Shown here piece by piece: positions 26,063 to 37,691 of a stretch of 41,311 bases of DNA. The notes under the pieces were generated by a model. The model saw only the letters and a program-made list of their open reading frames with translations, made no database searches and had not been told where the DNA came from. The DNA comes from Sphingobacteriales bacterium. Lineage in GTDB: Bacteria; Bacteroidota; Bacteroidia; CAILMK01; JAAYUY01. Each line of letters opens with the position of its first letter. The stretch's first letter is position 1. The DNA lies in NCBI GenBank assembly GCA_012517435.1, contig JAAYUY010000011.1:1-41311 (forward strand), written 5' to 3'. The translations under genes were made by a program, and so were the position numbers.

Positions 26063-27349
26063 CTATTTCCTGAACAAGGCAGTAACCCTGTCAAAAATTC
26101 CGTTCATCCATGCGATAGCCATCCCATAGTTGGTAACAGGAATACCGTTGTCAATAAAAGGTTTAATACGTGCCGAAAGCTGTCTGGGAGTTACCATACA
26201 TCCCCCACACTGAATGACCAGTGAATACTGATGTATATCGTGCGGAATCGAAGCAAGTCCGGCAATTATTTCGAAGCTCAGTGATTTGCCGGAATATTTT
26301 TTTATCCATTCGGGCAACTTATGTCTTCCGATGTCATCACAATTGACCTGATGCGTACAACTTTCCAGAATCAGTACTTTATCACCATCTTTTAGCTGAT
26401 CTATTTTGGGCGTATCTTTCAGATATTCATCAAATTCCCCTTTCAGGCGGGCAAAAATGATGGAGAAGCTCGTCAATGGAATATTTTCAGGAACTATTTT
26501 ACTCACTTTTTCAAAAACCTGACTATCGGTTACCACCAACGCAGGCTGTATTGATGTATTTTGAAAAAACTGCTTTAGTTCACTTTCCTGCAACACAATA
26601 CAGATGGCATGCTGATCCAGAACATCGCGTATTGCCATTTGCTGAGGCAATATCATTCTTCCTTCAGGGGCTTCTTTGTCAATGGGAGTAACCAGTACCA
26701 CAAATTCACCGGGATTAATTAAATCTGCCATTAATCGCTTCTGTTTATAGGCATTTTCAGGGATAATGTTTTTCAGCTTACTGATAAGAACTTCCAGATT
26801 GTCAGGTGCATAAGTGGTAAATTCGATGATGTCGCCATTGTAATATTGTCTGATTTTCTTTTCAGTATCAGCATTCAACCTTTTCAGATCTGATTTGTTA
26901 TGAACCAATAAAAAAGGCACTGCAGCTTCCCTGAGCTTATTAATCCATTCAATTTCAATTTCATCAAAGACATTTGATGCTATGATTAAAATGGCACAAT
27001 CAATCAGGTTAATCACATTCATGGTTTTCTGAACACGTTTCAGTCCCAGCTCGCCTGTATCGTCAATTCCTGCTGTATCAATGACTATGGCAGGCCCGAT
27101 ACCGAAAATTTCTATGGACTTCTTTACCGGATCGGTGGTGGTTCCGGCATGGTCTGAGACAATTGCCACGTCCTGACCTGTCAATGTATTAATAAAGGAA
27201 CTCTTGCCATTGTTTCTTCTACCGAAAATGCCAATATGCGGCTTGCCAATGATTGATGATTTTGACATTTGATTTGAATAACCGAGCTTTTTGTTATCAT
27301 TGTTTATTTCTTCTATTTTCATCGTATCTGTTTTTAAATTTTCGTTCAT
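26063..27349 (-). CDS. hydF: [FeFe]-hydrogenase maturation GTPase HydF
   Basis: 428 aa scaffold protein on which the two-iron H-cluster subsite is assembled before transfer to HydA. The GTPase domain has GRRNNGKS (43-50), a TTTD switch region (70-73), DTAG (91-94) and NKSD (151-154). The C-terminal cluster-binding motif is Cys331-x-His333 and Cys381-x2-Cys384. In many HydF proteins a histidine precedes the CxxC pair; here it is Gln380. The native start may be Met28 (27268), since HydF usually begins shortly before the GKPHIGIFGRRN segment; the longer start is kept because no evidence excludes it. It is last in the receiver-kinase/hydG/hydF operon, 94 bases after hydG. Confidence 0.93.
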   Translation of the reverse strand: MNENLKTDTMKIEEINNDNKKLGYSNQMSKSSIIGKPHIGIFGRRNNGKSSFINTLTGQDVAIVSDHAGTTTDPVKKSIEIFGIGPAIVIDTAGIDDTGELGLKRVQKTMNVINLIDCAILIIASNVFDEIEIEWINKLREAAVPFLLVHNKSDLKRLNADTEKKIRQYYNGDIIEFTTYAPDNLEVLISKLKNIIPENAYKQKRLMADLINPGEFVVLVTPIDKEAPEGRMILPQQMAIRDVLDQHAICIVLQESELKQFFQNTSIQPALVVTDSQVFEKVSKIVPENIPLTSFSIIFARLKGEFDEYLKDTPKIDQLKDGDKVLILESCTHQVNCDDIGRHKLPEWIKKYSGKSLSFEIIAGLASIPHDIHQYSLVIQCGGCMVTPRQLSARIKPFIDNGIPVTNYGMAIAWMNGIFDRVTALFRK

Positions 27350-27443: not shown

Positions 27444-28871
27444 TTAAAAATATAAGTCTCTTTCCCCATTTTTTATTCTTTCAATTCTGTCAGTAATTTC
27501 CTTTTTATTTCTTGAGAAATTATTTTTACTTAATTCATTTTCAATAAGTTTCCATCCTTTTTCAGCTGTATCAGGAGGTGCATAATCCACCAGATATTCG
27601 GAAAAGGTCAGGATAGCATTGGCTGTACAGAATCTTTTGATAAAACCCGGAACACTAAACTCCATGAAATGTTCTCCTGTTCTGCCCTTTCTGTAGCAGG
27701 CAGTACAAAAGGACGGCAACATCTGCTGTTCCATCAGTTCCTCAATGATTTCATTCAGCGAGCGGTTATCATTGATGCGAAACTGTCCCCTGTTCAGATC
27801 CTGCATTTCATTGATATTTGAGGAATAACTTCCGAGTTCAAGCCTGGTACCCCCATCAATTTGTGAAACACCATATTGTAAAAGCTCATTGCGGAGTTCA
27901 AGGGGTTCGCGGGCGGTCAGTATCAATCCGGTATAGGGTACTGCAAGGCGGATAATGGCCACCATGCGAGAAAAATCTGCATCATTCATGAAATACTTTT
28001 TACCCATTTGCAGCATGGAAGCATCTTTAATTCTCGGAAACGAAATGGTATGCGGACCAACATTAAAACAGGCTTCCAGGTGGTTGACATGGCGAAGCAG
28101 TCCCATAACTTCAAATTTCCAGTCGTAAAGTCCGAATAATGCTCCTATACCTACATCATCAATACCGGCTTCCATAGCCCTGTCAAGAGCGGTCAGGCGG
28201 TAATGATAATCAGCTTTTTTGCCCCGAAGGTGGTAGGTATGGTACGCCTCAGGGTGATAGGTTTCCTGAAAAATCTGATAAGTCCCGATTCCGGCCTCCC
28301 TGACAGTTTTAAAACCTTCTGTTTCCAAAGGAGCTGCATTGATATTCACTCTTCTGATTTCTCCTCTTCCCTTTTTAACAGAATAAGCCAGCCTGACGGT
28401 ATGCGCAATAAACTCAGGATTGTACTGTGCATGCTCTCCGTAAACCAGAATCAGTCGCTTTTGTCCGTTGTCTTCCAGTGCTTCTATCTCTCTGACAATT
28501 TCTTCATCTGACAGGGTCTTTCTTACTGCCTGCGTATTTGAGGCCCTGAAACCGCAATAAGTACAATTATTTGAACATTTGTTGCCGATATATAAAGGAG
28601 CAAAAAGCACGATACGGTTGCCATAAACTAGCTGCTTCAGCTTTTTGGCCCCTTCCCTGATTTCATTTACCATTTCAGGGTCGTCAACATTCAGCAAAAC
28701 AGCCGTTTCTTTCAGGCTCAGTCTTTTTTTATCAAGCGATTTTGAAATAATTTCTCTGACTTTGGCCGGATCAGGTTTTGCATTTTTCAGTATCTCTTCA
28801 ATTTCACCTGCATCTATAAAAGATTGATGAGCTCTGTCTTCAATTCTATATTTTTCCGGTATAAATTTCAT
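27444..28871 (-). CDS. hydG: [FeFe]-hydrogenase maturase HydG (radical SAM tyrosine lyase)
   Basis: 475 aa. It cleaves tyrosine by radical SAM chemistry to yield CO and cyanide ligands for the H-cluster. The SAM cluster motif is Cys99-x3-Cys103-x2-Cys106 (CSNNCTYCGF), and the second cluster motif, diagnostic for HydG against ThiH and HydE, is Cys389-x2-Cys392-x22-Cys415 (CTACYRKGRTGEHFME). Length and sequence are typical. It starts four bases after the upstream receiver-kinase stop, so the two are cotranscribed. The third maturase, hydE, is not present in the window. Confidence 0.96.
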   Translation of the reverse strand: MKFIPEKYRIEDRAHQSFIDAGEIEEILKNAKPDPAKVREIISKSLDKKRLSLKETAVLLNVDDPEMVNEIREGAKKLKQLVYGNRIVLFAPLYIGNKCSNNCTYCGFRASNTQAVRKTLSDEEIVREIEALEDNGQKRLILVYGEHAQYNPEFIAHTVRLAYSVKKGRGEIRRVNINAAPLETEGFKTVREAGIGTYQIFQETYHPEAYHTYHLRGKKADYHYRLTALDRAMEAGIDDVGIGALFGLYDWKFEVMGLLRHVNHLEACFNVGPHTISFPRIKDASMLQMGKKYFMNDADFSRMVAIIRLAVPYTGLILTAREPLELRNELLQYGVSQIDGGTRLELGSYSSNINEMQDLNRGQFRINDNRSLNEIIEELMEQQMLPSFCTACYRKGRTGEHFMEFSVPGFIKRFCTANAILTFSEYLVDYAPPDTAEKGWKLIENELSKNNFSRNKKEITDRIERIKNGERDLYF

Positions 28872-28875
28872 ATTA

Positions 28876-30006
28876 TTAAGATTTTACAGGTAATTCCACG
28901 GTAAAAATACTTCCCTTGTCCGGTTCACTTTTTACCTTGATATTTCCATGGTATTCCTCAACAATTTTTCTGACGATGGATAAACCTAAGCCACTCCCAC
29001 TGATGCCTTTGGTCTTTTCCGATTTTATTCTGACAAATTCGTTGAAAAGTTTTGAAACATCTTCTTCACTCATCCCGATCCCGGTGTCCTCTACCGTGAT
29101 AATAATTTTATCCCCTTCCTTTCTGAGATCAAGATTTACCATTCCTCCATCAGGCTTGTTATATTTAACTGCATTCGATAACAGGTTGTTGAAAATGGAG
29201 TCCATTTCATTCGAATCGGCAATGAAATAAAGCGACTCAGGAAGATTTACATTTAACCTGACTTTCCTCTGCATGGCATAGGCTTCAACGGAGTAAACCG
29301 CTTTCCGGGCAGTATCGGCAAGGTCAATATTCCTGAGTTCCCTGATGTTTTTGCCTGATTCAATTTTTGTCAGGTCAAGCAAATCCATGATCAGGTTACG
29401 CATTCCGTTCAGGCGTTCCATACAACGATCGATCATCGGCATGTAATCATCGATATTTTCTCCTAACTGCCTGTCTTTCATCATCTTTAAATAACCATCA
29501 ATGGCATTTACGGGAGATTTAAGTTCATGAGAAAGCACTGAAATAAATCTGTTTCTGGCCTGTTTCCCCTGTCCGTTACTCATTTGTCTGGTCATGCGTC
29601 TGAGATACAGGTGTTTGGTGATATTTTCCATGGCCGACTTGAGTTCCTGCGGGGTAAAAGGCTTCGGAACAAAATTATATGCCCCGTTTTGAGTAGCTTT
29701 TACAGCCAGATCAAGTGAGGCATAACTGGTAATCATCATCACAAGGCTTTCAATTTGTTTTTCATTGATGTATTCCAGCACCTCTATGCCATCAATACCA
29801 GGAAGTTTGTTGTCGAGCAACACAATATCCGGAACCTGCCGGTTGATCCATTCGATGGCTTCCTCTCCTGAACCGGCTTCAATCATTTCGAAGTCAAAGT
29901 CTTCTTCCATGAAAGGAAAGCCTACGGTAAAATTTTTCAATATTCTGTTGATTCCGGAACGTATTCCCGGCTCATCATCTACTATAAGTACCTTTAATGT
30001 TGCCAT
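28876..30006 (-). CDS. Receiver-histidine kinase hybrid of the hydrogenase maturation operon
   Basis: 376 aa soluble signalling protein. The N-terminal receiver (1-125) has the acidic pair at 10-11, phospho-acceptor Asp65 (DIVLLDNKLPG) and Lys115 (FVPKPFTP). The kinase part begins with HisKA SVLSHELKSP (His160) and ends with HATPase_c (NNLLSNAVKYNK, DTGIGM, GSGLGLSIV). There is no membrane segment and no DNA-binding domain, so it probably receives phosphoryl groups on the receiver and passes or tunes them through its kinase. It is the first gene of the hydG-hydF operon, which suggests that it senses or adjusts hydrogenase maturation; the partner is unknown, with the H-cluster-like sensor kinase next door the obvious candidate. 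Confidence 0.9.
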   Translation of the reverse strand: MATLKVLIVDDEPGIRSGINRILKNFTVGFPFMEEDFDFEMIEAGSGEEAIEWINRQVPDIVLLDNKLPGIDGIEVLEYINEKQIESLVMMITSYASLDLAVKATQNGAYNFVPKPFTPQELKSAMENITKHLYLRRMTRQMSNGQGKQARNRFISVLSHELKSPVNAIDGYLKMMKDRQLGENIDDYMPMIDRCMERLNGMRNLIMDLLDLTKIESGKNIRELRNIDLADTARKAVYSVEAYAMQRKVRLNVNLPESLYFIADSNEMDSIFNNLLSNAVKYNKPDGGMVNLDLRKEGDKIIITVEDTGIGMSEEDVSKLFNEFVRIKSEKTKGISGSGLGLSIVRKIVEEYHGNIKVKSEPDKGSIFTVELPVKS

Positions 30007-30458: not shown

Positions 30459-30866
30459 TTAAATTTTCATTACTTTTTTAATTTCACGATGCAACTGATC
30501 GCCACGAATGCCTTTATCGAGATATAGGTCGGCTTTGATCCACTGCCTGTCCTGACTGGTTTCAAGGCTGAAAGTATATCCGGTTTCTGCAGTTACAGCT
30601 GTTGCAATAATGACGGGCACATCGGGATATTTTTTCTTTAATTTGTAACTGAGAATAAATCCGCTGTCTTCCTGTTCCATCATGAGGTCGAGGACAGCCA
30701 GATCAGGACGGTGAGATTCGATATAAGCTTCTCCATCTTTCTGACTTTCAGCAGTATCCACACTAAAGCCCAGCTTTTCAAACTGAGTTTTCAACTGATA
30801 CAGGCAATCTGTATCATCATCAACAATGAGTACTTTCATTTTATTATTTTTTTCTGAATTATTCAT
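30459..30866 (-). CDS. Stand-alone receiver protein paired with the H-cluster-like sensor kinase
   Basis: 135 aa from the ATG at 30866; two codons upstream there is only a TTG. Met10 is another possible start, directly before the receiver core KVLIVDDD. Acidic residues at 16-18, phospho-acceptor Asp60 (DLAVLDLMM) and conserved Lys118 are present, so it should be phosphorylatable. It has no output domain. The segment between Thr89 and Lys118 is a little longer than usual. It starts eleven bases after the sensor kinase stop and is last in the hydCBA operon, so it is the likely phosphotransfer partner of that kinase; what it contacts is unknown. Confidence 0.88.
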   Translation of the reverse strand: MNNSEKNNKMKVLIVDDDTDCLYQLKTQFEKLGFSVDTAESQKDGEAYIESHRPDLAVLDLMMEQEDSGFILSYKLKKKYPDVPVIIATAVTAETGYTFSLETSQDRQWIKADLYLDKGIRGDQLHREIKKVMKI

Positions 30867-30876
30867 AATCAATCAT

Positions 30877-32883
30877 TTAAACTTTTATCGTCTCTGTTGA
30901 ATTTTTTCTTGGCAAAGTGATGATAAAGGCTGTTCCGACAGGACCTTTCTGTGCATCCTGGTTTGAAACTACCTGTATTTTTCCTCTATGCATTTTTATA
31001 ATACCATAAATCAGAGGGAGTCCGAGCCCGGTTCCTTTTCCCGGTTTTTTAGTTGTAAAGAAGGGCGTAAAAATCTTATCCATATTTTCGGGAGAAATAC
31101 CCACACCGGTATCTCTGACTTCTATTCTGATTTCATCGTCATTTCCGCTCAGCCTGAGGAAAATGTTCCCGCCATTTGGCATAGCCTCCACTGCATTTTT
31201 CAGCAGATTGGTCAACACCTGCATCATCTGGTCGGTATCGATCATAATCGAGTGGTTTTCCAGTGATGATTGTATGTCAACGCTGATATTTCCGGGAATA
31301 ATCACCGATTCGGTACTGTGTTTTACAAAATCTAACAAATCGGTTTCCGAGTACCTGACCTGATTTTTTCTGGCAAAGTTCAGCAAGCCGCTGACAATGT
31401 TTTTACATCTGTTGGCCTGCTCTGCAATCAGCTCAAGATCATGTTTGATAGGGTCGTCCGGTTTTGCTTCTTCTTTCAGGATATTACTATACATAGTAAT
31501 GATTCCCAATGGGTTGTTAAGCTCATGGGCAATGCCGGCTGAAAGCTGTCCCATGCTTGCCAGTTTTTCGCTTTGCCGGAGTGCCTGACGGGTGGAGACA
31601 AGTTCCTGATAGGTTTCGTTCAGCTGACGGATGGAGGCATGTAGTTTATCTATCGAATAAGGCAGACACATTTCGTTTTCGGCAAGTCCTTCGATGATGG
31701 CAATGGCATGCTCCACGCAGGTATCATAGCCGCAGGCTCCGCAATTCAAATGGTCTTCCGCCCTGGTTTTCCCCATTTTTTCCAAAACCTGTCTGATTTC
31801 TTCATCCGTTGGCTTGGGAATTCTTCTGTCGAGTGGTTCAAATTCCTGAGAAAGATCAATGTTTTCAAATTCTTTCACTTCATTCTCCCATTCCTGAATA
31901 TTAAGCTTCTCCATTTTTTTCTGTACATAGCAGGTAATCATGTTTCTCCGGGCATAACGTTTTCCACCTCTGCTCATACCTGGCCCCATGATGCATCCCT
32001 CGCAGGCAAGCACTTCCAGATGTTTTATCCCTACAAGCTCATTGGAAAATTCTTCAATGGCATCCCTGAAATTCACCCTTCCTTCTGCTGTCAGTACTTT
32101 TCCCCTGCTGATATCATCTACAATTTCCATATTCTGAAGCAGGCCACGGGCAACAGGAAAAATAGCTCCTTTACCTGCGAGAGGCGGATCAAATTCTGAC
32201 GGACTGACCTGCTCCTTTGAAATTCCCTTTTCCCTGAACATTTCCCTGAGTTCCTGGAAGGTGCATACATAATCCAGTTCATCGCTTTCAGCCTTTTTGG
32301 CAATACATGGTCCGAAAAATACCAGTTTATATTCATTGCCATACTTTTCTTTCAGTACCCTGGCAGTTGCCACCATTGGCGAAACAACAGGTGCAAGATT
32401 TTTGGTCAGTTCAGGATAATAATGTTTGATATAATAAGCCACTGCAGGGCAGTCGGAGGTAATGACGGGCTTTGAATCATTTTTTTCAAGGAGTTTTGAA
32501 TATTCTTTGGCGACCAGATCGGCTCCGAAGGCTATCTCACAAACCTTATCAAACCCAAGGCTACGCAACATGCCTACCAATAAACGGTAATCTCCTGTTT
32601 CATTAAATTCAGCAGCAAAACTTGGTGCCAGACAAGCTATCGTTTTCTGACCCGATTCCAGCAGGCGGATAACCTCCTCTGTAAATTTAAGATAAATTTT
32701 TGCTTCCTGACTGCATACCTTCACACAATTTCCGCAGCCAATACAACGCTCAGGCATTACTTCAGCCTGTCCGTTTATGATGCGTATGGCTTTTACCGGG
32801 CATTCCCTGACGCAGGTATAGCATACCCTGCACCGGTCTTTCACCGTGTAAACCAACTGCCTGTATTTACTGCTTCCCATCAT
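30877..32883 (-). CDS. Ferredoxin - degenerate H-cluster - FeS - histidine kinase sensor
   Basis: 668 aa, no membrane segment. Domains: two [4Fe-4S] sites (Cys18/21/24/28 and 47/50/53/57); an [FeFe]-hydrogenase large-subunit-like domain (about 80-330); a FeS domain (CGACGYDTC, Cys381/384/389/406); HisKA with IAHELNNP (His453); and HATPase_c (NAVEAM, DTGVGI, GTGLGLPL). H-cluster motifs are kept but altered: TSDCPA (Cys145; Asp144 replaces the proton-transfer Cys of TSCCPG), GPCIAKKAE (Cys193), and ACEGC (Cys294, Cys297), one residue shorter than the usual CxxxC. This fits sensory [FeFe]-hydrogenase-like proteins that detect H2 or redox state and signal through the kinase. Whether it binds an H-cluster is open. 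It lies directly downstream of hydA. Confidence 0.88.
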   Translation of the reverse strand: MMGSSKYRQLVYTVKDRCRVCYTCVRECPVKAIRIINGQAEVMPERCIGCGNCVKVCSQEAKIYLKFTEEVIRLLESGQKTIACLAPSFAAEFNETGDYRLLVGMLRSLGFDKVCEIAFGADLVAKEYSKLLEKNDSKPVITSDCPAVAYYIKHYYPELTKNLAPVVSPMVATARVLKEKYGNEYKLVFFGPCIAKKAESDELDYVCTFQELREMFREKGISKEQVSPSEFDPPLAGKGAIFPVARGLLQNMEIVDDISRGKVLTAEGRVNFRDAIEEFSNELVGIKHLEVLACEGCIMGPGMSRGGKRYARRNMITCYVQKKMEKLNIQEWENEVKEFENIDLSQEFEPLDRRIPKPTDEEIRQVLEKMGKTRAEDHLNCGACGYDTCVEHAIAIIEGLAENEMCLPYSIDKLHASIRQLNETYQELVSTRQALRQSEKLASMGQLSAGIAHELNNPLGIITMYSNILKEEAKPDDPIKHDLELIAEQANRCKNIVSGLLNFARKNQVRYSETDLLDFVKHSTESVIIPGNISVDIQSSLENHSIMIDTDQMMQVLTNLLKNAVEAMPNGGNIFLRLSGNDDEIRIEVRDTGVGISPENMDKIFTPFFTTKKPGKGTGLGLPLIYGIIKMHRGKIQVVSNQDAQKGPVGTAFIITLPRKNSTETIKV

Positions 32884-32890
32884 GGCTGCT

Positions 32891-34660
32891 TTATTTTAAA
32901 ACTTCTCTTTCCATATAAGAAGTATGAAGTATTTTATGGCTCAGGTGCCCGTTGGGTTTACCAAGATGTTTGGCATAAAGTTCTTTAATATAAGGATTCA
33001 GGTGTGAGGCTTTTATACTGTCAGTATCGTCAATGGCATAAAGGCTTTTCATTCGCTCCATGACTGAAGCTGAATCACTGCCGATAGGTTGCCCCCCTCC
33101 ATTGACACATCCCCCCGGACAAGCCATCACTTCAATAAAGTGAATATCGTCTCTGCCGTTTTTAATATCTTCAAGAAGTTTGCGGGCATTCGCCAGTCCG
33201 CTGACTACGGCAACGCCAAGTTTTAACTCATCGATTTCCAGATGAGCTGTTTTAATACCTGCTGTTCCCCTGAGTTGCGGGATACGGTAAGCTGTCAGCT
33301 CCTTGCCGGTCAGAAAGAAGTGAGCCGTGCGTAAAGCGGCTTCCATGACACCACCTGATGCACCAAATATTTTACCGGCAGAACTCCTCATACCTAAAGG
33401 AGAATCGGCCAATTCAGGGTTTAAACGGGTAAGATCAAGATGATGCAACCTGATGAGTTTTGCCAGCTCTCTGGTGGTCAGCACCGCATCCACATCATTA
33501 ATCCCTTCGAAAATCATCTCATCTCTCTGCTGTTCAAATTTCTTAGCCGTACAAGGCATGACAGATACCACGTATATGTTTTCCTTTTTCAATCCGCTTT
33601 CTTTTGCATAGATATTTTTAATGACGGCACCCATCATTTGTTGCGGTGATTTACAGGTAGATAAGTTGGGTATCATCTCAGGGTAAAATTCTTCGGTAAA
33701 TTTGACCCAACCCGGACAACAACTGGTGAACATGGGCAAAGTGCCCCCGTTTCTGATTCGTCCGATAAGCTCAGTCGCTTCTTCAATGATGGTGAGATCG
33801 GCACTGAAAGATGTGTCAAAAACAGCATTAAAGCCGATTTTACGCAATGCTGCATTCAGTTGTCCGATAAGTTCCTTTCCCGATTCAAGTCCAAATTCTT
33901 CAGCCAGAGAAACAGTAATAGATGGGGCATACTGAACGATAAGTGTTTTTTCCTTTTTTGAAAGCATGTCTAATACTTCAGGAAGATGGGATTTTTCAGT
34001 AAGTGCTCCAGTTGGGCAGGCCATGATACACTGACCACAGTTGATACAACTCGACACATTAAGTCCGCGGTTGTAAACCGTGTTAATCACTGTTTTGCTG
34101 CCTCTTCCGACAAAGTCAATGGCAGCCACCCCTTCAATTTCTTCACATACCCTGACACAACGCCCGCAAAGAATACACTTGGCAGAATCACGTATGATGG
34201 AAGGACTGGAAACGTCCATCTGATAGCGTTTTTTGACACTGTTCAGGCGTCTGTCTGTAATATTCAGTTCTCCGGACAACTGCTGAAGTTCACATTTCCC
34301 CGATCTGACACAATAAAGGCAATCATCCGGATGATTGTTGAGTAAAAGTTCAACAATAACTTTCCGGGAGGTTATAACCCTCTGAGAATGAGTTTGAATT
34401 TTCATCCCTTCAGCCACAGGCTCTGAGCAAGCCGTTACCAGATTTCGTCTTCCCTCGACCTCTACCACGCACATTCTGCAGGCTCCGCTGGGGAACATGT
34501 CTTTGATATGGCAAAGTGTCGGGACATTTATGTTATTTCTTTTCAATACTTCAAGGATGGTTTCCCCTTTTCTGGCACCTATCTCCTGATTGTTTACCGT
34601 GATGTTAAAATCGTAATTTGCCGTATTTATTTCGTTACGCATAATTTTGGTTTTATTCAT
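32891..34660 (-). CDS. hydA: Trimeric [FeFe]-hydrogenase catalytic subunit HydA
   Basis: 589 aa catalytic subunit of the NADH/ferredoxin-linked HydABC enzyme. The N-terminal [2Fe-2S] domain has Cys50/61/64/78; the His-ligated [4Fe-4S] cluster His110-Cys114-Cys117-Cys123; two [4Fe-4S] sites Cys162/165/168/172 and Cys205/208/211/215. The H-cluster domain has all three signatures intact: TSCCPGW (Cys314 proton transfer, Cys315 ligand), MPCTAKKFE (Cys370, Lys373, Glu376) and MACPGGC (Cys514, Cys518). The C-terminus (after 540) is the small-subunit-like tail. The start overlaps hydB by eight bases; Met7 is an alternative start. The enzyme should be active when HydE, HydF and HydG are all available. 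Confidence 0.95.
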   Translation of the reverse strand: MNKTKIMRNEINTANYDFNITVNNQEIGARKGETILEVLKRNNINVPTLCHIKDMFPSGACRMCVVEVEGRRNLVTACSEPVAEGMKIQTHSQRVITSRKVIVELLLNNHPDDCLYCVRSGKCELQQLSGELNITDRRLNSVKKRYQMDVSSPSIIRDSAKCILCGRCVRVCEEIEGVAAIDFVGRGSKTVINTVYNRGLNVSSCINCGQCIMACPTGALTEKSHLPEVLDMLSKKEKTLIVQYAPSITVSLAEEFGLESGKELIGQLNAALRKIGFNAVFDTSFSADLTIIEEATELIGRIRNGGTLPMFTSCCPGWVKFTEEFYPEMIPNLSTCKSPQQMMGAVIKNIYAKESGLKKENIYVVSVMPCTAKKFEQQRDEMIFEGINDVDAVLTTRELAKLIRLHHLDLTRLNPELADSPLGMRSSAGKIFGASGGVMEAALRTAHFFLTGKELTAYRIPQLRGTAGIKTAHLEIDELKLGVAVVSGLANARKLLEDIKNGRDDIHFIEVMACPGGCVNGGGQPIGSDSASVMERMKSLYAIDDTDSIKASHLNPYIKELYAKHLGKPNGHLSHKILHTSYMEREVLK

Positions 34661-36608
34661 TTAACGACAATTCCACCTGTACCTGTTTTTTCTCTCCTTC
34701 AATATATATTGCTCCGAAGTTACAGGCAGCCTGACAACTGCCGCAACCGGTACATTTCTCTGCAATGATGTAATGCGGGTTTTTTCTCGACCCGACAATG
34801 GCATTTACGGGGCATTTTTTGGTACAAGCCGTACATCCCGTACAAAGGGCATCATCGATCACATAGGTTCTTAATCCCTGACAAACGCCTGCCCTGCAAT
34901 GCCTTTCATAAATATGTTCTTCATATTCATCTCTGAACCATCGCAAGGTACTCAGCACAGGATTTGGTGCCGATTGTCCAAGCCCGCAAAGAGAAGTGTC
35001 TTTTATGACCATGGCCAGATTTTCAAGCTGAACAATCTTTTTAAAACGGGACAAGGCATTCCCGTCAAAAGGTTTTTTTGTTATTTCCTCCAGGGTTTCG
35101 AGCATGACTTTGGTACCTTCGCGGCATGGAATACATTTTCCGCAACTTTCACGCTGGATAAAATCCATGAAAAACTTTGCCACATCGACCATACAGGTAT
35201 CTTCATCCATGACTACCATACCACCTGATCCCATCATTGCACCAACAGACAGCAAGGATTCATAATCGATAGGAATATCAAGGTTCACCTCTGTAACACA
35301 ACCTCCTGAAGGACCGCCCATCTGAACAGCCTTGAATTTTCTTTCATTTTTAATTCCTCCGCCAATGTTAAAAATTATTTCCCTGATGGTCGTTCCCATC
35401 GGAATTTCGACCAGGCCTGTTCTTTTTATCTTTCCTGAGAGGGCAAAAACCTTTGTTCCCTTGCTGGTTTTTGTTCCCATGGAAGCAAAATAATCAGCCC
35501 CTTTATTGAAAATAGAAGGGACATTGGCAAGTGTCTCTACATTATTTATAACTGTCGGTTTACCAAAAAGCCCCTGAGTAGTTGGATAAGGAGGCCTTGG
35601 GCGGGGCATTCCTCTTTTTCCTTCAATGCTATGAATCAATGCGGTTTCTTCTCCGCAGACGAAAGCACCTGCCCCTTTTTTGATGATAATTTCCAGATCC
35701 TGTCCTGTTCCGAAAATATTTTTCCCAATCAGTCCGTATTCTTTGGCGTCAGCAATTGCCTTAATCAGCCTTTCAATGGCAAGGGGGTATTCAGCACGTA
35801 TGTAAACATAAGCTTTGGTGGCCCCGATGGCGTAAGCTGCAATGCACATTCCTTCAAGAAGCTTGTGCGGATCGCCTTCGATGACTGCCCTGTCCATAAA
35901 AGCACCGGGATCACCTTCATCTGCATTGCAAATCAGGTATTTCTGATCAGCTGGGCTGGCAAGTCCAAGTTTCCACTTCGTTCCGGTACTGAAGCCTCCC
36001 CCTCCTCTTCCCCTGAGTCCGCTTTTCAATACTTCATCACATACATCTTCCCTCGATTTACCTTTAATAACCTGAAGATAAGCCTGATAGCCTCCTCTTG
36101 CGATGTATTCTTCAATACTCACAGGGTCAGATATTCCGCAATTTTCAAGAACCAGCCTTTTTTGCAACCTGAAAAAAGGATGTTCGCTGATGAAAGGAAC
36201 ATTTTCCCATGCTTCCCCTTCATCGTCAAACTGTCCGATAATCTTCAGCACAGGGAGTCTGCCATTCATAACGGCCTGAAGAAGTTCAGTTACTTTATCC
36301 TGAGTAACCTGCTCAAAACTTATCCGCTTTTTGCCCGGTAGCTTCACATCGACAATAGGTTCACTGGAACACAGACCTATGCATCCCACTCTGACTACAT
36401 CAGCTTTTATCTCATTGGATTTCAAATAGTTTTCAATCGCCTCCATAGTCTTTCCTGCACCAGCACCCAGGCCACAGGTACCGGCTCCGACAAAAATGAC
36501 CGGACGGTCCACCAGTTCTTTCCGCAGATATGCACAAATTTTATCAGGCGAACTGTCCGGCTCTTTGTACTTATTCTTAGCTAATACTTTTTCTTTCAGG
36601 ATTTCCAT
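34653..36608 (-). CDS. hydB: HydB, NuoF-like FMN/NAD(H) subunit of the trimeric hydrogenase
   Basis: 651 aa. The N-terminal thioredoxin-like [2Fe-2S] domain carries Cys45, Cys76 and Cys80. The NuoF core has the NADH/FMN glycine motif GRGGGGFSTG (200-209), the segment NADEGDPGAFMDR, and the N3-type [4Fe-4S] cluster Cys489/492/495/541. The C-terminal ferredoxin domain has Cys589/592/595/599 and Cys619/622/625/629, plus an additional Cys571/Cys576 pair seen in bifurcating HydB/NfnB-type subunits. It takes electrons to or from NAD(H) and is the proposed bifurcation subunit together with HydA and HydC. It starts nine bases after hydC stops. Confidence 0.95.
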   Translation of the reverse strand: MEILKEKVLAKNKYKEPDSSPDKICAYLRKELVDRPVIFVGAGTCGLGAGAGKTMEAIENYLKSNEIKADVVRVGCIGLCSSEPIVDVKLPGKKRISFEQVTQDKVTELLQAVMNGRLPVLKIIGQFDDEGEAWENVPFISEHPFFRLQKRLVLENCGISDPVSIEEYIARGGYQAYLQVIKGKSREDVCDEVLKSGLRGRGGGGFSTGTKWKLGLASPADQKYLICNADEGDPGAFMDRAVIEGDPHKLLEGMCIAAYAIGATKAYVYIRAEYPLAIERLIKAIADAKEYGLIGKNIFGTGQDLEIIIKKGAGAFVCGEETALIHSIEGKRGMPRPRPPYPTTQGLFGKPTVINNVETLANVPSIFNKGADYFASMGTKTSKGTKVFALSGKIKRTGLVEIPMGTTIREIIFNIGGGIKNERKFKAVQMGGPSGGCVTEVNLDIPIDYESLLSVGAMMGSGGMVVMDEDTCMVDVAKFFMDFIQRESCGKCIPCREGTKVMLETLEEITKKPFDGNALSRFKKIVQLENLAMVIKDTSLCGLGQSAPNPVLSTLRWFRDEYEEHIYERHCRAGVCQGLRTYVIDDALCTGCTACTKKCPVNAIVGSRKNPHYIIAEKCTGCGSCQAACNFGAIYIEGEKKQVQVELSLNE

Positions 36609-36617
36609 AACTTTTCA

Positions 36618-37115
36618 TTAAACATTTTCAACCAAAGCTCCCTGTTCTTTCAATTCTCTTGATTTATAATCATCGATAATCTGTTTTAAACCGGAGGCAG
36701 TCACTTTTGCGTAAAATTCTCCGTTAATGGTGATGACCGGAGCCAATCCGCAGGCACCTATACACGCTACCACCTCAATACTAAACAAACCATCCGAAGT
36801 CGTTCGCCCGGCTTTAGTCTTCAACAGTTTTTCAAGCTCTTCCAGGACGGTTGCAGAGCCCAGTACGTGACAAGCCGTTCCGCGGCATACCTGAATATGG
36901 TATTTACCGGGTTTTTCAAATCTGAACTGGTTGTAAAAAGTAGCAACACCAAATATTTTACTTGTGGGGAGGTTTAAAACCTTTCCGACCTCAGTAATGG
37001 CGCTTTCAGAAATATATCCTTCCGATTCCTGAATGTCCTGAAGAAGAGGTATCAGGCTATCGCGTCCCTTCCCTTTGTATTTGTTCAGTATTTCTGCTAA
37101 ATCTGACTTCTTCAT
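36618..37115 (-). CDS. hydC: HydC, NuoE-like [2Fe-2S] subunit of the trimeric hydrogenase
   Basis: 165 aa, the usual length for NuoE/HydC. An N-terminal helical bundle (LIPLLQDIQESEGYISESAI) is followed by a thioredoxin fold with the [2Fe-2S] ligands Cys77, Cys82, Cys118 and Cys122 (CRGTACHVLGS and CIGACGLAP). It works beside HydB in electron transfer. It lies 33 bases after the receiver gene at 37149. Confidence 0.95.
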   Translation of the reverse strand: MKKSDLAEILNKYKGKGRDSLIPLLQDIQESEGYISESAITEVGKVLNLPTSKIFGVATFYNQFRFEKPGKYHIQVCRGTACHVLGSATVLEELEKLLKTKAGRTTSDGLFSIEVVACIGACGLAPVITINGEFYAKVTASGLKQIIDDYKSRELKEQGALVENV

Positions 37116-37148: not shown

Positions 37149-37691
37149 CTAAGCTTTTTCGGCTAAGGTTTCGTTCAGCAGCCTTTTCACTTCAGGGAGT
37201 ATTCTCTTTGAATCAACAGGCTTTGCTAAAAATCCGTCAACCGGCAGCCAGACAGATTTTCCATCTTCCGATTTGTAATCAATACCGGCTTTTCCACTTA
37301 CCACATCTTTAATCAGGAGCACATCCATTTCCTTGAAATCGGGATCTTTTCTGAATTCACGGGCTATGGCCTGAACATCCGGCTTGGTAGTAACCAAAAC
37401 TTCAATGGAAGTCAGCATGATAACAGGCATATTCCTGAACTCAGGGCTGCTTTTAAGTTTTTTAGCCATTTCAAAGCCTTCATACTGGGTCGTCATCATC
37501 ACATCGAGAATAGCCAGATCAGGTTTAATCTGTAAAGCTTTTTCATAACCGTCTTTTTGGTTGGAAGCATAACTGACCGAATAACCTTCATGAGTCAGAA
37601 TGGTTTCAAGTACGTTAATGACATCAATGTCGTCATCAACCAGAAGAATTTTCTTTGTTTCCATTTTTTTAAATTTTAAATTGTCCGACAT
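37149..37691 (-). CDS. Stand-alone receiver protein with enlarged beta4-alpha4 region, first gene of the hydCBA operon
   Basis: 180 aa; Met10 (37664) is an equally plausible start because the receiver core begins with KKILLVDDD. Acidic residues 19-21, phospho-acceptor Asp63 (DLAILDVMM) and Lys157 (GFLAKPVD) are present. Between Thr94 and Lys157 there are 63 residues, against about 20 in an ordinary receiver, forming a charged insertion (about 98-148). There is no output domain. It is the first gene after promoter P2, directly before hydC, and is related in style to the receiver at the other end of the same operon, suggesting that both take part in phosphotransfer with the sensor kinase at 30877-32883. 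Confidence 0.85.
   Translation of the reverse strand: MSDNLKFKKMETKKILLVDDDIDVINVLETILTHEGYSVSYASNQKDGYEKALQIKPDLAILDVMMTTQYEGFEMAKKLKSSPEFRNMPVIMLTSIEVLVTTKPDVQAIAREFRKDPDFKEMDVLLIKDVVSGKAGIDYKSEDGKSVWLPVDGFLAKPVDSKRILPEVKRLLNETLAEKA

Follow-up and report, generated by a model that had tools for sequence, protein, structure and literature searches.

A gene in the window, the 41,311-nucleotide stretch of DNA that forms contig 11 of a 3.19-Mb Sphingobacteriales genome, very likely encodes a histidine kinase to which a sensory [FeFe]-hydrogenase domain of a Group C-like type is joined (Table 1). By its nearest relatives, the genome is Bacteroidales-related. We consider it likely that this protein is loaded with an H-cluster and senses H2. 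The account that we find probable as a whole is that of a Group C sensory H-domain joined to a cytoplasmic histidine kinase and co-expressed with HydABC, working by the mechanism proposed below.

Table 1. The sensor kinase, its domains and the neighbouring genes in the window
Feature	Position	Strand	Basis and remarks
Sensor kinase ORF	30877..32883	minus	668 aa; ORF list, Pfam, alignment, AF2 model
F-domain of sensor kinase	C18,21,24,28 / C47,50,53,57	minus	2x[4Fe-4S] ferredoxin type
H-domain (PF02906), CxxC third motif	31969..32646, residues 80-305	minus	Pfam; motif table; genome-scale match G000:C11:31981-32646
C-terminal FeS domain	31660..31749, residues 379-408	minus	PF04060; Cx2Cx4Cx16C
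hydA	32891..34660	minus	NCBIfam NF040763, 813 bits vs cut-off 765; catalytic [FeFe]-hydrogenase, group A6
hydB	34653..36608	minus	Pfam/NCBIfam; NuoF-like, FMN
hydC	36618..37115	minus	PF01257; thioredoxin-like [2Fe-2S]
Stand-alone response-regulator receiver upstream of hydC	37149..37691	minus	PF00072 only; without output domain
Stand-alone response-regulator receiver downstream of sensor, 4 nt	30459..30872	minus	Pfam; without output domain
REC-HisKA-HATPase hybrid kinase	28876..30006	minus	Pfam; conserved order; after 452-nt gap
hydG, CO/CN-synthesising H-cluster maturase	27444..28871	minus	TIGR03955, 497.7 bits over cut-off
hydF, maturation GTPase	26063..27349	minus	TIGR03918, 491 bits

Domain architecture and H-cluster site

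A sequence-only reading had recognised a ferredoxin, a hydrogenase-like domain, a second FeS domain and a histidine kinase in this protein. The Pfam scan agreed (Fer4_10 at residues 12-57, Fe_hyd_lg_C at 80-301, PF04060 at 379-408, HisKA at 444-507 and HATPase_c at 549-660). The gene coordinates given in that reading were exact; the strand, which it left unstated, was minus by ORF analysis. Fe_hyd_lg_C matched with E 9e-51 (173 bits vs a cut-off of 22), HisKA with E 2.5e-14 and HATPase_c with E 3e-26. The candidate phospho-His is H453, in the HisKA/DHp helix. The C-terminal FeS ligands, C381x2C384x4C389x16C406, form a motif identical to the Cx2Cx4Cx16C published for groups C/D, M2e/M2f (PMC8163306).

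Alignment to the HydA encoded in the window placed C145, C193, C294 and C297 at C300, C355, C499 and C503 (CpI numbering), which bears out the four H-cluster cysteines named earlier. D144 aligned with C299, G191 with M353, F242 with F417, L292 with M497 and K196 with K358. The replacement of the proton-relay cysteine by Asp (TSDCPA) and the CxxC form of the last pair, both read before from the sequence, were likewise found: the pair is C294-E-G-C297, with a one-residue gap relative to CxxxC. Hence, as in group C (M2f), the sensor kinase has the four H-cluster cysteines, an N-terminal 2x[4Fe-4S] domain and the C-terminal Cx2Cx4Cx16C motif, C299 is not conserved and M353 is replaced by a small residue. 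The Pfam scan found in it no PAS domain, which follows the FeS domain in that group, and it does not have the CxxxC spacing of the group.

The four H-domain cysteines as well as C381, C384, C389 and C406 were invariant in the 49 aligned sequences, which include several output types from two phyla, and K196 was kept in at least 90% of them. The earlier description of the domain as degenerate is therefore misleading. The proton-path positions E279, E282 and S319 carry other residues in the sensor kinase, and this, together with the shortened third motif, could point to a decayed hydrogenase domain that is a mere structural scaffold for the kinase. Such decay was already disfavoured and we regard it as hardly credible, given cluster ligands that do not vary across both phyla and all these output types and pocket residues that are under constraint.

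From the Asp it had also been argued that the cluster is bound without turnover. This argument is weak, because CpI C299D and HydA1 C169D keep 30-80% of their H2-release activity (PMC6226526), and TmHydS and TamHydS turn over despite the loss of C299 (TamHydS, PMC8163306; TmHydS, PMC10055695), TmHydS being active with Ala at this position (PMC10055695). The Asp is thus no argument for a dead site. Catalytic hydA genes that adjoin the sensor gene in three other loci (L003:2324-4048, L004:6223-7947 and L010:6246-7970) also encode Asp at C299 (SGDCPAW/SSDCPAW), and these HydA proteins are altered at E279 and F417 as well. In view of the published C299D activity and these adjacent HydA proteins, we rejected Asp as a mark of inactivity. 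The activity retained with Asp, the catalysis by TmHydS and TamHydS and the N-terminal F-domain would fit a hydrogenase with slow turnover that has signalling as a second role or exchanges electrons with the HydABC complex, the kinase being secondary. We consider this quite improbable, as the proton-path positions are substituted in the sensor and the fused kinase and the conserved REC partners argue for signalling.

CxxC, not Asp, is the real departure from the known H-cluster site. All 36 HK-type sequences have CxxC, and the four cysteines and GPCxxKK are common to all of them; CxxC is also found in the 619-aa and sigma54 types. The PAS-, MCP-, D- and B-types retain CxxxC, with one exception, a PAS-sized protein with CxxC (L119). 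Local decay as the origin of CxxC was rejected, since the motif is conserved throughout the HK type and common to the sigma54 types. CxxC is a subfamily signature, newly reported here and common to sigma-54-activator fusions in Firmicutes.

Phylogeny of the H-domain

We compared the H-domain with sensory [FeFe]-hydrogenase groups, as had been suggested, in a tree of 87 H-domains. As these did not include the named TmHydS, TamHydS and Nar1 sequences, we assigned group names from domain architecture and from residue patterns in publications. The sensor clustered with Group C types fused to PAS, MCP, HK and sigma54 modules, and these types were separated from A, B1 and D by a branch with 90/86 support. 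The D, A and B1 clades each had 100/100 support. The D clade excludes the sensor, which has Gly rather than Ser/Thr at the M353 position, so that it does not belong to Group D (M2e). The tree thus assigns the H-domain of the sensor and its HK-type relatives to the sensory clade of Group C and separates it from A, B and D. The domain did not fall among non-H-cluster proteins in this tree, from which Nar1-type sequences were absent; such a placement had been named as the finding that would overturn the earlier reading. The Bacteroidales HK type and the 619-aa type formed one clade (100/100), and the two Bacteroidota HK-type clades were joined with only 82/10 support. Monophyly of the CxxC types taken together was not rejected (p-AU 0.237). 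The residue spacing of TmHydS (131/177/223/267) was matched by no sampled group.

Relatives and other output types

PF02906 was present in 55 of the 395 genomes of the phylum that we scanned, and the genome of the window holds only two such proteins, HydA and the sensor. The genome-contig scan yielded 11 Bacteroidales-type relatives of 55-61% identity and one Firmicutes protein at 27%. The sensor types read from the loci were HK (∼660 aa), PAS (∼590 aa), 619-aa, MCP, D-like (∼440-460 aa) and group B (TIGR04105), together with one hybrid kinase of 1348 aa. Asp occupies the C299 position in all HK-type proteins of the Bacteroidales clade (12/12), and Pro, Ala or Ser is found there in the other class. 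The 619-aa type adjoins the HK type in three loci. This second, divergent sensor of 619-624 aa (L004:1332-3191, L005:1155-3029 and L010:1251-3113, minus strand) keeps the four cysteines and CxxC, has lost the K358 equivalent and the kinase, and resembles the "second bfuT" of Bacteroidota in the available part of the BfuT account (PMC11406978).

In Firmicutes, the fusion partners of the same CxxC H-domain and FeS domain are either PAS-HisKA-HATPase or sigma-54 AAA+ activators, the majority of which have a Fis-type HTH, and at least eight CxxC-type genes lie no more than ∼3 kb from a group A HydA. The joining of the H-FeS unit to different signalling outputs argues for a sensor role. The sigma-54 fusions (for example L091:1483-3732, L096:499-2700, L132:1995-4196 and L111:97-2754), often within 3 kb of hydA, would link an H-cluster-type sensor to a promoter in one protein; we found no description of sigma54-fused H-domains in the literature searched. 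One protein (L084:2878-6924) carries PAS-HisKA-HATPase, receiver domains and Hpt on the same chain as its H-domain. Its genome (G160) has no other PF02906 match, yet HydE, HydF and HydG are present, and this sensor may be the only protein that they mature.

Operon and conserved gene module

The sensor gene had been placed inside the hydCBA operon. It is indeed co-operonic with hydCBA, but starts 7 nt after hydA, directly downstream of it and not between the hyd genes, and a receiver gene follows after 4 nt. The HydA of the window scores as an NADH-dependent group A6 enzyme (NCBIfam) and has canonical motifs (TSCCPGW / MPCTAKK / MACPGGC).

The SENSOR-REC-REC/HK gene module, newly reported here, is conserved and mostly lies beside hydCBA. 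Most loci of both Bacteroidota classes have the order HydC-HydB-HydA-SENSOR-REC-REC/HK, and those of the second class often continue after the module with another REC and a second HydC-HydB-HydA set. Four loci (L055, L064, L066 and L068) have SENSOR-REC-REC/HK without upstream hydCBA, and L012 is a lone sensor. The receiver downstream of the HK-type sensor is conserved in nearly all relatives, and that upstream of hydC in L007, L009, L011 and L013. Both stand-alone receivers of the window have unusual C-terminal stretches.

Pfam recognised no DNA-binding domain in any REC protein of the window. As both the REC protein and the REC-HK hybrid are without one, the pathway may in the end act on a protein and not on a promoter, and it is conceivable that the stand-alone receivers directly regulate the hydrogenase complex. 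The proposal of an H2 or redox sensor for the island therefore holds in part: a sensor kinase of the hydrogenase system agrees with the Group C clade, the retained cysteines and Lys358, the hydCBA operon and the encoded HydEFG, but a visible transcriptional output is absent from the window.

Maturases

HydE, HydF and HydG are all encoded in the genome of the window (hydE on another contig, G000:C239:14403-15428) and in 10 of the 11 Bacteroidales relatives; the exception, G399, is a 2.6-Mb genome in which the sensor gene runs off the contig. In the second Bacteroidota class, HydG was present in 14 of the 25 genomes with an HK-type sensor and undetectable in the other 11 (G124, G132, G294, G216, G184, G267, G031, G051, G263, G156 and G373; completeness ∼99-100%), single-contig genomes included. 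HydE alone is found in G124 and G267 and HydF alone in G132 and G294, where the regions around the leftover genes contain no N; G216 and G184 lack HydE and HydF as well. These 11 genomes suggest that the sensor can persist without canonical maturation. Most of them encode a HydA with a full active site (TSCCPGW, glutamates and Met positions), so the lack of HydG fails to distinguish the sensor from the enzyme and does not simply mean that the sensor has lost its H-cluster. HydEFG co-occurrence agreed with H-cluster loading in Bacteroidales, but was set aside as an overall test because the other class has full-site HydA without HydG. Four further genomes (G039, G078, G014 and G093; loci L036, L037, L042 and L043) encode a HydA-like protein with TSCSPGW, in which the cubane ligand C300 is replaced by Ser, and HydG and HydF were not detectable in them.

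The sensor could alternatively be a plain redox sensor, in which the H-domain holds a [4Fe-4S] cubane only, with no [2Fe], and the kinase reports the reduced-ferredoxin/NADH poise at HydABC. The CxxC of every HK-type member, the persistence of the sensor where HydG is undetectable, in two genomes together with HydE and HydF, and the adjacent 619-aa paralogue with its cysteines and no K358 equivalent are consistent with this possibility. We nevertheless think it rather unlikely, because the HK type keeps Lys358, Pro and Ser in the pocket, full HydEFG accompanies the sensor in its own genome and nearly all close relatives, and HydA keeps a complete active site in the HydG-less genomes too.

Predicted structure and proposed mechanism

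The AF2 model (49 sequences; mean pLDDT 88, pTM 0.66) has a single helix, residues 407-455, that begins right behind C406, the last FeS ligand, and leads into the DHp helix that carries H453; confidence drops to ∼60-75 around residues 440-470. The best Foldseek matches of the model were [FeFe]-hydrogenases (CbA5H, E 7.5e-21), with CpI C299D also listed. The linker from Cys406 to His453 has 47 residues in all 12 proteins of the Bacteroidales type and 40 in all 24 others. This difference, newly reported here, is exactly one heptad; between just two clades, this could arise by chance at about one in seven. We nevertheless favour a register-dependent coiled coil, since the length does not vary within either clade and a heptad pattern is seen.

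The analysis established anatomy, conservation, gene order, clade membership and predicted fold. For the H-cluster sensor that we prefer, we infer cluster loading, signal, phosphotransfer and output as follows. HydEFG would deliver the [2Fe] subcluster onto the cubane held by C145/C193/C294/C297, and H2, or else a redox poise that depends on H2 and ferredoxin, would change the state of the H-cluster. This may alter either the H-domain or the C-terminal FeS domain, which leads with its last ligand directly into the helix, and a shift of the coiled-coil helix could set the autophosphorylation of H453. The phosphate would then reach two partners, the neighbouring stand-alone REC and the REC-HK hybrid, which may act on a protein target, possibly the hydrogenase itself. 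Against an H-cluster sensor speak the CxxC third motif, which is not known to hold an H-cluster, the 11 sensor genomes with undetectable HydG, and the lack of a DNA-binding response regulator in the module. More speculatively, and in our view rather improbably, the HK-, PAS-HK- and sigma54-fused CxxC proteins may form a large subfamily with an H-cluster/cubane site re-built for sensing, in some lineages without HydG-made ligands; in Bacteroidota the coiled coil would feed a REC/REC-HK relay whose single-domain RECs act on the hydrogenase complex.

Sensory [FeFe]-hydrogenases are still called putative throughout the literature covered, and how an H-cluster signals is an open question of the field. 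Here, sensor and kinase form one chain, predicted to be soluble, with a helix of fixed length between the last FeS ligand and the phospho-His. A single purified protein could therefore show whether H2 affects a kinase, and via which cluster. The CxxC clade also poses the question of how far an H-cluster tolerates a changed third motif.

Comparison with known systems

In the regulatory [NiFe]-hydrogenase HoxBC with its kinase HoxJ, a hydrogenase-type sensor is also coupled to a histidine kinase that controls a hydrogenase. HoxBC/HoxJ are separate subunits, and the enzyme family and metal site are unrelated to those of the sensor described here. TmHydS of Thermotoga maritima (Group C/M2f) likewise has a 2x[4Fe-4S] F-domain, has lost C299, has Gly in place of M353 and a C-terminal [4Fe-4S] cluster, and is co-operonic with a group A hydrogenase; it differs in having a PAS domain, Ala at C299 and Ser at M497, where our protein has Asp, Leu, no PAS domain and a fused kinase (PMC10055695). 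TamHydS of Thermoanaerobacter mathranii (Group D/M2e) shares the F-H-FeS core, Cx2Cx4Cx16C, the absence of PAS and the loss of C299 (PMC8163306, PMC13104023), but it has the Ser/Thr of group D at M353 vs Gly here, belongs to the separate D clade and has no fused kinase (PMC8163306). Its C-terminal cluster does not respond to H2, which makes a redox relay through this cluster doubtful (PMC13104023).

In HydDB, groups C1 to C3 are entered as putative regulators. The closest likeness is to BfuT, a HydDB group C3 protein with a histidine kinase domain from the sub-type V BfuTABC clusters of Hydrogenedentota, Calditrichota and Bacteroidota, described in a survey of Hydrogenedentota (PMC11406978). 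The available part of that account mentions neither a CxxC motif nor REC/REC-HK partners and contains no analysis of the linker. As in sub-type V, the kinase of our protein is on the same chain and its gene lies beside the HydA of HydABC. According to the same part, BfuT has a Group C-like H-domain fused to a histidine kinase, its gene adjoins those of bifurcating-type HydABC/BfuABC, and in Bacteroidota examples it is downstream of bfuA. Since an HK-fused group C3 protein beside BfuABC has thus been published, the kind of protein found here is already known.
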